Of a stretch of 64,000 nt of DNA, positions 17,117 to 18,864 are shown piece by piece (the stretch's first letter is position 1; every line of letters starts with the position of its first letter). The notes beneath the pieces are model-generated. The model saw nothing but the letters and a program-made list of their open reading frames with translations. It was not told where the DNA came from and ran no database searches. Position numbers and translations under genes: made by a program. The stretch is from Variovorax sp. OV700 (GTDB lineage: Bacteria; Pseudomonadota; Gammaproteobacteria; Burkholderiales; Burkholderiaceae_C), in NCBI RefSeq assembly GCF_900099805.1, contig NZ_FNDR01000001.1, forward strand, positions 248,001-312,000, in the 5' to 3' direction.

Positions 17117-18478
17117 TCACGCCAGTTCCTCCACCCGCAGCGCGGTGACCTTCCCTGCGACCGAGGGATGTGCCTGCAGCGCGTGCAGCGCCAGGTCCAT
17201 CGTGCCCTGCTGCACCGGCTGCGTCAGCACCAGCACCTGCGGGCCCGAGCCGGGCTGCGCAGCAGCAGCCAGCGTCACATGGCGTACCGGCACCTGCTGC
17301 CGCACGAGCCAGGCAGATATCGCCTCGACGTCGCCGGCCGCATGCACGGGCACGCGCAGGTAGTGCGATGAGCATGTCGCGGCGCGCGGCAGCACCGGCA
17401 AGGCGCTCATCGCGTGGGCATGAAACCCGAGGTGCGGCACGCGCTGTGCCGCATGGGTGCCGTCGAGCCGCGCCACGTCCACCAGATCGGCGATCACCGC
17501 CGAGGCGGTCTGCTCGGACCCTGCACCCGCACCGTAGTACATGGTGACGCCGGCCGCATCGCCCTTGACCATGATGCCGTTCATCGACCCGTTCACATGC
17601 GCCATGAGGTGCGACACGGGCACCAGCGCGGGCTGCACGCGGAGCTCCACGCCCTCTTCCCTCCGGCGGGCCACGCCCAGGAGCTTGATGCGAAAGCCCA
17701 ACTGCGCGGCGCAGGCCACGTCCGTCCGCTGAAGTGACGTGATGCCTTCCACCTGCACGTCGGCAAGCCGCACGGAGGTGCCGAACGCATTGGCGGCCAG
17801 CAGGGTGAGCTTGTGCGCGGCGTCGATACCCTCGATGTCGAAGGCCGGGTCGGCCTCGGCATAGCCCAGTGCCTGGGCCTCGGCGAGCGCGGCGGCAAAG
17901 TCCAGGCCTTCGTCCTCCATCTTGCTCAGGATGAAATTGGTGGTGCCGTTGATGATGCCCGCCACCCACTCGATACGGTTGGCCGTGAGGCCTTCGCGCA
18001 GCGCCTTGACGATGGGAATGCTCACCGCCACGGCGCCCTCGTAGGCCACGGCCACGCCATGCTGGCGAGCCGCGGCAAAGATCTCGGCGCCGTGCACCGC
18101 CAGCAGGGCCTTGTTGGCCGTGACCACGTGCTTGCCGTGCGCAATGGCGGCCAGCACCCAGTCGCGCGCTGGGCCGGTGCCGCCAGCCACTTCCACCACC
18201 ACGTCGACGTCCGGGTGCGTGGCCACGCGCAGCGGGTCGTCCGTCACCGGAACAGTGCCGCCCACGATGCGCGCGGCACGCTCCAGGTTGCGCGCCGCCA
18301 CCATCACCAGTTCAATCGGCCGGCCCGCGCGTCCGGCAATGTCGGCCTGGTTGCGCGCCAGCACCCGGAACGTGCCCGCGCCGACGGTGCCGATGCCGAT
18401 CATGCCCACGCGCAATGCGCGAGGTGCCGCGGAACGGCTGGGCAGGGGTTCGAGTGACTGGACTGGATCGCGGTACAT
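17117..18478 (-). CDS. hom: Homoserine dehydrogenase
   Basis: The 453-residue enzyme reduces aspartate semialdehyde to homoserine with NAD(P)H, the branch step to threonine, isoleucine and methionine. The N-terminal Rossmann motif is VGMIGIGTVGAGTF. The family signature region around GFRIKLLGVARR carries the catalytic Lys. The C-terminal part from about residue 365 is an ACT-like regulatory domain. The start at 18478 is chosen because GGAGA precedes it; the next ATG upstream lies inside a terminator hairpin. The gene is monocistronic here (no thrC) and is preceded by a Thr/Ile-rich leader peptide and hairpins, which suggests attenuation. Confidence 0.93.
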   Translation of the reverse strand: MYRDPVQSLEPLPSRSAAPRALRVGMIGIGTVGAGTFRVLARNQADIAGRAGRPIELVMVAARNLERAARIVGGTVPVTDDPLRVATHPDVDVVVEVAGGTGPARDWVLAAIAHGKHVVTANKALLAVHGAEIFAAARQHGVAVAYEGAVAVSIPIVKALREGLTANRIEWVAGIINGTTNFILSKMEDEGLDFAAALAEAQALGYAEADPAFDIEGIDAAHKLTLLAANAFGTSVRLADVQVEGITSLQRTDVACAAQLGFRIKLLGVARRREEGVELRVQPALVPVSHLMAHVNGSMNGIMVKGDAAGVTMYYGAGAGSEQTASAVIADLVDVARLDGTHAAQRVPHLGFHAHAMSALPVLPRAATCSSHYLRVPVHAAGDVEAISAWLVRQQVPVRHVTLAAAAQPGSGPQVLVLTQPVQQGTMDLALHALQAHPSVAGKVTALRVEELA

Positions 18479-18493
18479 GGAAATCTCCGGGTG

Positions 18494-18526
18494 AAAAACA
18501 AAAAACCCAGCTGCCAGAGCTGGGTT
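18494..18526 (-). terminator. Attenuator-like intrinsic terminator in hom leader
   Basis: On the minus strand AACCCAGCT (18526-18518) and AGCTGGGTT (18512-18504) form a perfect 9-bp stem with a 5-base loop, followed by a T-rich run (18503-18494). It lies between the leader peptide and the hom start at 18478, so it would stop transcription before hom when formed. Confidence 0.85.
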
Positions 18527-18552
18527 CATTCATTCGGAGAAGAGCGATACAC

Positions 18553-18578
18553 CAGGTGGCTGCCGAAACGGCCACCTG
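18553..18578 (-). promoter_or_regulatory. Leader hairpin upstream of the hom attenuator
   Basis: CAGGTGGC (18578-18571) and GCCACCTG (18560-18553) can pair as an 8-bp stem. The second arm can alternatively pair with the first arm of the terminator (GCCA with TGGC, CTGG with CCAG, leaving a small internal loop). That provides mutually exclusive structures of the kind used in attenuation. Confidence 0.6.
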
Positions 18579-18585
18579 CGCGTGC

Positions 18586-18618
18586 TCAGGGGGCCGCGGT
18601 GGTAATGGTGGTAATCAT
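18586..18618 (-). CDS. Thr/Ile-rich leader peptide of hom
   Basis: A 10-residue open frame MITTITTAAP ends seven bases before the first leader hairpin. Four of its ten residues are Thr (all ACC) and two are Ile (both ATT). Thr and Ile are end products of the pathway that hom feeds, and E. coli thrL has the same kind of Thr/Ile run. The Shine-Dalgarno is weak (GGGG about 15 bases upstream), and a TTG four codons upstream is an alternative start. Confidence 0.65.
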   Translation of the reverse strand: MITTITTAAP

Positions 18619-18864
18619 TCGTGCAACCAACGCCCCGTTCGCCCGCGCGAAGGCAGGCGGCGTCAGGCGGGCCAGCGAGGCTGCGCAGACGGTGGTGGGG
18701 AAGAAATGGCACGGCATGAAGCTGGGAGTGTACACAAGGCCCGCCTGGCGGAGGGGCCTTCCCGCGCAAAACCCGCTGAAATACGGGGAGCAGGCCTACA
18801 CATCTCTGCCCGCAGCGAGCCTAATGTCTTGGGAAAAGAACTGCATCATCCAGGAGGCAGCATC

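Follow-up and report, generated by a model that had tools for sequence, protein, structure and literature searches.

The threonine leader thrL of Escherichia coli, which we take to correspond to the Rfam family Thr_leader, is a short open reading frame (ORF) with runs of threonine and isoleucine codons, followed by a terminator that precedes a homoserine dehydrogenase gene. The his attenuator of E. coli is built of six segments that form a chain of more than four alternatives, and enteric attenuators with four or six segments default to termination when the leader is untranslated. Two other systems are related to the present locus through single features. In Sinorhizobium meliloti, the 5' end of the trpL transcript is the trpL ATG, and the transcript may act as a leaderless mRNA (PMC7298713, in the sections drawn on here). 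In Bacillus subtilis, the single gene vmlR is reported to be subject to both transcription attenuation and translation attenuation (PMC9226507, likewise in the sections drawn on).

The locus compared with these systems lies in Variovorax sp. OV700, in a 64,000-nt stretch of contig NZ_FNDR01000001.1 (the window; positions are counted from its first base), where the attenuator region and the homoserine dehydrogenase (hom) gene are both on the minus strand. It resembles thrL through similar codons: a short ORF with Thr/Ile codon runs and a terminator before a homoserine dehydrogenase gene. It differs from thrL in that the ORF seems to be leaderless, its first control codons are placed 5' of segment 1 (the first of five pairing segments), a fifth segment is present, the target is a stand-alone hom paralogue (hom2), and an anti-Shine-Dalgarno (anti-SD) sequence is added. 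The six segments of the E. coli his leader are an even number, which gives termination by default when untranslated; the five segments here are an odd number, which would reverse that default. The S. meliloti trpL leader shares the suggested leaderless arrangement and differs in concerning tryptophan, encoding 14 aa, and preceding another gene, and vmlR shares the double attenuation and differs in being an antibiotic resistance gene rather than part of an amino acid pathway (both comparisons being with the sections of these sources drawn on).

The element is probably a Thr/Ile-sensing, ribosome-mediated attenuator of hom2 with an odd number of segments, on by default and with a second output on translation. 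The sensing of threonine and isoleucine is well supported; the polarity is what we infer. Sequence comparison bears out the ORF frame, the four helices, the anti-SD pairing in the family, and the link to hom2, and on these we propose a transcription start, control by the ribosome, a direction of response, and a kinetic order of folding. Attenuators of this kind are known, and this one is new in how many segments it has, in where its codons lie, in its apparently leaderless ORF, and in acting at two levels. No betaproteobacterial Thr/Ile attenuator was found in the portions of the literature searched. Vitreschak et al. 2004, which is said to deal with proteobacterial attenuators, could hold a relative. 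Nor was a hom attenuator in Burkholderiales found in the portions searched, which included sections of PMC2965389, PMC7298713, PMC2864571, PMC4239095, and PMC1262725.

The leader ORF and its control codons

A first-pass annotation of the window had described a 10-residue frame, MITTITTAAP, upstream of hom. The frame exists as described (ATG ATT ACC ACC ATT ACC ACC GCG GCC CCC TGA, 18618-18586, minus strand, with four ACC and two ATT codons); as a whole leader it found no support, being the tail of a 43-codon ORF that probably starts at 18717 and not at 18618. The features of this region are as follows.

18727..18732, minus strand: TACACT, a -10-like box, from the sequence and the TAnnnT pattern of the family
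18586..18717, minus strand: leader ORF, 43 aa plus stop, MPCHFFPTTVCAASLARLTPPAFARANGALVARMITTITTAAP, its ATG nine bases after TACACT
18607..18615, minus strand: first control codons ATT ACC ACC (9, 8, and 7 before the stop), where a stall is predicted to leave segment 1 free
18598..18606, minus strand: second run ATT ACC ACC (6, 5, and 4 before the stop); with a ribosome on either ACC, segment 1 is covered
17117..18478, minus strand: hom2, homoserine dehydrogenase paralogue, 453 aa, from domains, tree, and predicted structure

Among relatives the leader frame is open in all 45 distinct sequences, at 15 different lengths ranging from 31 to 50 aa. A TAnnnT box lies 6-10 nt 5' of an in-frame ATG in the same 45 (window included), 34 of them with TACACT, although the script took the first in-frame ATG having such a box and some matches may be due to chance; the 15 lengths, all in frame, are a stronger sign than the box count. 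Box and in-frame ATG were also present in 29/29 of the hom2 upstream regions first examined. The expected transcription start, near 18719-18721, is only a few bases 5' of the leader ATG. A scan for sigma-70 consensus found no site at the leader, so a -35 element is weak or absent. No Shine-Dalgarno (SD) sequence was seen by eye before the leader ATG, and in L146 and L149 the only methionine of the leader is the first, so these two need the upstream start. The leader mRNA thus appears to be leaderless.

At least two Ile or Thr codons occupy places 9, 8, and 7 before the stop in 42/45 sequences, threonine stands at places 5 and 4 in 41/45 and 34/45, respectively, and the commonest tail is MITTITTAAT (9/45). 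Codon choice is also biased: counted over all 50 rows, near-copies included, isoleucine in the leader tail is ATT in 77 of 82 cases (120 of 791 in the hom2 genes) and threonine is ACC in 190 of 210 (492 of 957 in the hom2 genes). The sensed signal would be charged tRNA-Thr and tRNA-Ile.

Five segments and four alternative helices

The RNA from 18640 to 18480 folds at -67 kcal/mol compared with -50.2 kcal/mol for dinucleotide shuffles (z -4.1), and none of 200 shuffles folded as well. The hairpins named in the first-pass annotation are present: an 8-bp hairpin, CAGGUGGC:GCCACCUG, pairs 18578-18571 with 18560-18553, a perfect 9-bp terminator pairs 18526-18518 with 18512-18504, and the U-tract at 18505-18494 leaves a gap of 15 bases to the hom ATG, at 18478 (all minus strand). 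The annotation's simple two-hairpin scheme found no support and was dropped, since the first hairpin (2:3 below) does not overlap the terminator; a further helix, 3:4, does. The extra pairings that the annotation suspected were found in three forms: between the leader ORF end and the first arm of the hairpin (1:2), between the second arm of the hairpin and the first arm and loop of the terminator (3:4), and between an anti-SD and the hom2 SD. A distal pairing between the terminator arm and a GGGU located just 5' of the control codons was dropped because, by eye, it is not conserved.

18587..18596, minus strand: segment 1, CGGCCCCCUG, the last bases of the leader ORF with part of its stop codon; one mismatch in 1:2 in the window
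18569..18578, minus strand: segment 2, CAGGUGGCCG, partner of segment 1 or 3
18552..18563, minus strand: segment 3, GCAGCCACCUGG, a partial repeat of segment 1 and partner of segment 2 or 4
18510..18523, minus strand: segment 4, CCAGCUCUGGCAGC, partner of segment 3, spanning the terminator's first arm and loop and the beginning of its second arm
18504..18526, minus strand: terminator hairpin (4:5), from the sequence and conserved pairing
18494..18505, minus strand: U-tract, from the sequence

Neighboring helices are mutually exclusive along the series 1:2, 2:3, 3:4 (the antiterminator), and 4:5 (the terminator before the gene). The alignments A1 and A2 cover 27 of 29 leaders (L095, identical to L007, and L108, of a second type, were left out) and A3 covers 50/50 sources, all picked for matching the element; removal of duplicates by full row or by core leaves 46 or 45 sequences. 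Across the 46 distinct aligned rows used for the helix statistics, the two helices to which the alignment was not fitted were paired in 92.2% of 459 cells (1:2; both sides changed in 6 cells; 3/500 shuffles as high) and in 90.3% of 495 cells (3:4; 15 cells; 0/500). The two to which it was fitted, so that their counts lean towards structure, were paired in 95.6% of 361 cells (2:3; 2 cells; 11/500) and in 92.0% of 387 cells (4:5; 7 cells; 0/500). Slid controls pair at most 51% (1:2), 68% (2:3), 42% (3:4), and 62% (4:5). The number of double-change pairs was not above shuffles for 1:2 (258/500 as high) and 2:3 (146/500) and barely above for 3:4 (79/500) and 4:5 (31/500), and because the rows share ancestry, shuffles and permutations overstate significance throughout. 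Co-variation in 3:4 can also be followed by eye: GGUCA/UGACC in L135, GCUGCCU/AGGCAGC in L140 and L147, and CGGUCG/CGACCG in L153. Folded as fragments alone, the segment pairs have mean energies of -18.2 (1-2), -18.4 (2-3), -16.7 (3-4), and -12.3 kcal/mol (4-5). The U-tract holds 7-9 T in 10 nt in 46/50 rows and 1-5 T in L146, L147, L149, and L157.

The high conservation of segments 1-3 in primary sequence would also be expected of a structured RNA that binds a metabolite, a protein, or a small RNA, with the ORF incidental, or of a terminated leader that acts in trans. Bases having two partners can explain that conservation, and the frame kept open at every one of the 15 lengths and the biased Ile and Thr codons speak against an incidental ORF. 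Rfam assigned no family at its gathering cut-off in the window, all nine matches at the locus up to E 10 falling below it and Thr_leader being absent from them, and no family at cut-off was found at the leader of ten relatives (one unrelated riboswitch lay in their loci). Such a ligand-binding RNA, or a leader acting in trans, is highly improbable.

Folding behind a placed ribosome

The family folds took the RNA 3' of a ribosome with its A-site at codon k before the stop, up to the end of segment 4, in 46 sequences. With k from 7 to 10, helix 1:2 formed in 45/46 and 3:4 in 43-44/46. At k 6 the counts were 18/46 for 1:2, 28/46 for 2:3, and 16/46 for 3:4, and with k from 1 to 5, 2:3 formed in 41-44/46 and 3:4 in 2-5/46 (5 at k 5, 2 at k 4). 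Moving the ribosome from codon 7 to codon 5 thus switches the fold. A ribosome at the stop gave 2:3 in 31/46 and 3:4 in 16/46; without a ribosome, 1:2 formed in 34/46 and 2:3 in 9/46, and 3:4 was above half in 22/46. When 12 more bases were let out, the sequences at k 8 were split between 3:4 (above threshold in 26/45) and 4:5 (22/45), and at k 2 the terminator prevailed (3:4 in 2/45, 4:5 in 42/45).

A looser measure, the share of the terminator first arm already paired upstream, gave 0.67 at k 7-10 (45/45 above 0.4), 0.34-0.48 at k 1-5 (17-25/45 above 0.4), 0.52 at the stop (36/45 above 0.4), and 0.60 without a ribosome (37/45). For the E. coli controls, the values at the control codons, at the stop, and without a ribosome were, respectively, 0.62 (Trp codons), 0.01, and 0.06 for the trpL antiterminator; 0.70-0.90 (Thr/Ile codons), 0.00, and 0.36 for thrL; and 0.58-0.66 (His codons), 0.64, and 0.39 for hisL. 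The fold code thus gives the known logic for trpL and thrL and that of hisL only in part.

In the window itself, where the ribosome edge was put one base further on than in the family folds, placing it on the first ATT or the first ACC codon gave 3:4 at 0.71-0.86 before segment 5 is out. Without a ribosome, the equilibrium fold had 2:3 at 0.88-0.91 and 3:4 at 0.06-0.08. Once the U-tract is out, 4:5 wins at all ribosome positions, so antitermination in the window would have to be kinetic. Taken alone, the window is a weaker case than the family, with its mismatch in segment 1, its 2:3 fold without a ribosome, and its terminator at equilibrium.

Direction of control

In the mechanism proposed here, transcription would begin at the leader AUG or a few bases 5' of it, and the 43-codon ORF, ending in Ile-Thr-Thr-Ile-Thr-Thr-Ala-Ala-Pro, would be translated. 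A ribosome slow at the first Ile-Thr-Thr would leave segment 1 free for 1:2, which would allow the antiterminator 3:4 to form and hom2 to be transcribed. With threonine and isoleucine plentiful, the ribosome would lie on segment 1 as segment 3 emerges, so that 2:3 would form, then the 4:5 terminator, and transcription would stop. A ribosome held before segment 1, or absent, would lead to read-through if 1:2 forms before segment 3 emerges. The distance from the first Ile-Thr-Thr run to segment 1 is just large enough for a ribosome stalled there to leave that segment free, so starvation should turn hom2 on. With an odd number of segments, a leader that is not translated should be antiterminated by default, the reverse of thrL, trpL, and hisL. 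If this polarity is true, one more segment flips the default of an attenuator while its physiological sense is kept.

The components themselves (a Thr/Ile leader, a terminator with a U-tract, and a hom gene, as in thrL) would also suit a classical, even-numbered attenuator of the thrL kind, in which a stall would free the antiterminator, lack of translation would mean termination, and the additional helix would be a side feature; the fold of the window without a ribosome, favoring 2:3 and the terminator, agrees with this. The geometry of the helices makes it unlikely, since of those found only 3:4 excludes the terminator and it is 2:3, not 1:2, that excludes 3:4, so that termination would follow when a ribosome rests on segment 1. 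With that segment covered, 41-44 of the 46 family folds accordingly predict 2:3, with the terminator arm left free, and 3:4 has more cells with compensatory changes than any other helix. The first-pass annotation had found, on placing ribosomes by hand, that the direction of control was not clearly the classical one, and the folds bear this out.

The frequent threonine at codons 5 and 4 counts against the proposed polarity, as a stall there would be predicted to give the off state. It would instead fit a sensor working in reverse, in which hom2 is off when starvation halts the ribosome at the second Ile-Thr-Thr run, over segment 1, and on when translation is completed, as the return of 3:4 at the stop in 16/46 would also allow. 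A starved ribosome, however, meets the first run earlier, 2:3 still leads at the stop (31/46), and an enzyme of the threonine pathway that is off during threonine starvation would make little sense, all of which renders this reversal very doubtful. Within the proposed default-on mechanism, the same figures for the stop codon (3:4 back in 16/46, the arm engaged in 36/45) mean that a long dwell at the stop would favor the on state. Other points that weigh against this polarity are the arm engagement persisting at codons 5 to 1 in 17-25/45, the split between 3:4 and 4:5 at codon 8, the 3:4 helix above half in no more than 22/46 without a ribosome, and the folds of the window itself.

Pairing of an anti-SD with the hom2 SD

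18535..18540, minus strand: anti-SD UCUCCG, between segments 3 and 4, complementary to CGGAGA
18484..18489, minus strand: CGGAGA, the hom2 Shine-Dalgarno region, from the sequence and folds

For 45 distinct pairs, native anti-SD and SD pair at -15.5 kcal/mol compared with -12.4 kcal/mol when swapped (0/5000 permutations), and the native pair beats the mean of its own swaps in 40/45. In some lineages both sides have changed, e.g., UCAUUCC with GGAAUGA in L135 and L141. The anti-SD therefore co-varies with the hom2 SD in the family and not in the window itself, where native pairing (-13.8 kcal/mol) is weaker than with swaps (-15.5 kcal/mol); it is likewise no better than swaps in L144, L146, L151, and L152. 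In RNA that reads through with 4:5 formed, the anti-SD would pair with the hom2 SD and lower translation also, and in the 3:4 state it would sit in the 3:4 loop. As the full-length fold of the window has the anti-SD:SD pairing at 0.97-0.98 for every ribosome position, release of the SD in the on state is a step that we infer.

Three of the four rows that lost the U-tract keep this pairing at -12.9 to -15.4 kcal/mol (L147, L149, and L157; L146 is weak at -8.6). The loss suggests a change from transcriptional to translational control in these four, and in the three that keep the pairing the switch may act on translation alone. Together with the co-variation, such rows could be taken to mean that the element is mainly a translational attenuator that hides and frees the hom2 SD, with the terminator secondary, an account that is compatible with the mechanism proposed above. 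The T-rich stretch kept after the hairpin in 46/50 and the window's pairing, weaker than with swapped SDs, make translation an improbable main level of control. For the full form of the proposed mechanism we would give about an even chance: a parity-inverted attenuator of five segments, in which the untranslated default is antitermination, completed translation and not stalling rearranges the RNA, the same switch opens and closes the hom2 SD, and some lineages lacking the U-tract rely on the SD alone.

The hom2 gene and the distribution of the leader

The Variovorax sp. OV700 genome has two genes with a Homoserine_dh domain, the copy in the window being called hom2. The target named in the first-pass annotation, hom, holds insofar as a homoserine dehydrogenase gene does lie downstream; this gene is a paralogue with a history of its own. 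In a tree of 75 hom proteins, chosen and labeled hom1 or hom2 beforehand, a branch with support 100/100 splits 38 hom2 from 37 hom1. The hom2 protein has the catalytic and NAD-binding domains, and TANKALLA, the Glu of EGAVAVS, and the Glu, Asp, and Lys of YAEAD...HK, residues which we take to have catalytic roles, are kept in 38/38 hom2 rows. Its predicted structure (mean pLDDT 87.7) matches homoserine dehydrogenase 3mtj over 434 columns.

Pfam finds an ACT domain in 24/24 hom1 and 0/24 hom2 proteins scanned (24 of the tree's 37 hom1 and 24 of its 38 hom2), and the predicted hom2 structure nevertheless shows an ACT-like order of strands and helices at the C-terminus. The Pfam pattern fits control of hom2 by expression instead of feedback; the regulatory site may have decayed and control may have moved to the leader. 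The suggested trade is that the paralogue with no recognizable ACT domain is the one under codon-sensing control. As a separate observation, EAAVAGG, nearly invariant in hom1, reads EGAVAVS in most hom2 proteins (residues 147-153 in the window), its two Gly places being V in 30/38 and S in 33/38; this stretch presumably lies close to where the substrate or a cation is expected to bind.

As first annotated, hom is preceded by a Thr/Ile leader peptide and attenuator hairpins, and these proved to be conserved in relatives. Among 34 hom upstream regions from loci taken by protein similarity, 29 were judged hom2 (window included); all 29 have a Thr/Ile-rich leader and 28/29 the same stems. In the other five, judged hom1 by eye, no leader was seen by eye. 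The covariance model R1, built from 27 leaders, finds one strong place in the genome of the window (146 bits), and the next match there (20.7 bits, L165) shows no leader by eye. In 399 Comamonadaceae genomes R1 finds 54 places, 46 of them strong (E below 5e-18) and spread over 17 genera by our own count. A strong place occurs in 42 of 49 genomes with two hom matches and in 4 of 334 with one, and hom lies directly 3' of 43/46 strong places. The element thus adds a probable Thr/Ile attenuator to the betaproteobacteria across 17 sampled genera of one family. The remaining 8/54 matches (E above 1e-5) were not counted, and in the two that were read (L163, L164) a leader could not be seen by eye. 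A search of 399 genomes from across the order gave strong places in three genomes of the family itself and none outside it. Four matches to other families (26.6-30.5 bits, L173-L176) were read and resemble common terminators that follow genes other than hom.

No strong place occurs in seven of the genomes with two hom matches. Four of these have a different Thr/Ile leader, and in G275, G291, and G098 no hom2 leader was seen. The second hom copy looked at in G275 and G291 follows an aminotransferase-like coding sequence by eye, and that of G098 is 42% identical. The second leader type stands before hom2 in L108, L186, L189, and L190 (two genera), e.g., MRPPVRTLIAITTITTTAWCGPWW. By eye, its ATG or GTG comes a few bases after a -10-like box, and it has a terminator and a separate hairpin hiding the hom2 SD. 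A manganese riboswitch (yybP-ykoY; L186:3873-4055, 75.3 bits) lies in the same locus as the hom2 of G143.

In G300 (L155/L193/L194), hom2 is split between two frames and the leader is intact; the split indicates a pseudogene or a sequencing error. The three strong places not followed by hom, all from one genus, precede a short ORF. In these three species (L148:579-923, plus strand; L151:3113-3472, minus strand; L152:3107-3451, minus strand) the attenuator stands before an ORF of 114-119 aa whose match to hom2 is confined to the ACT-like C-terminal part (55-66% identity over 44-64 residues to this part of the hom2 of a sister species), and the catalytic core is absent. Judging from these sequences, the ORF could conceivably encode a stand-alone regulatory protein under threonine attenuation.
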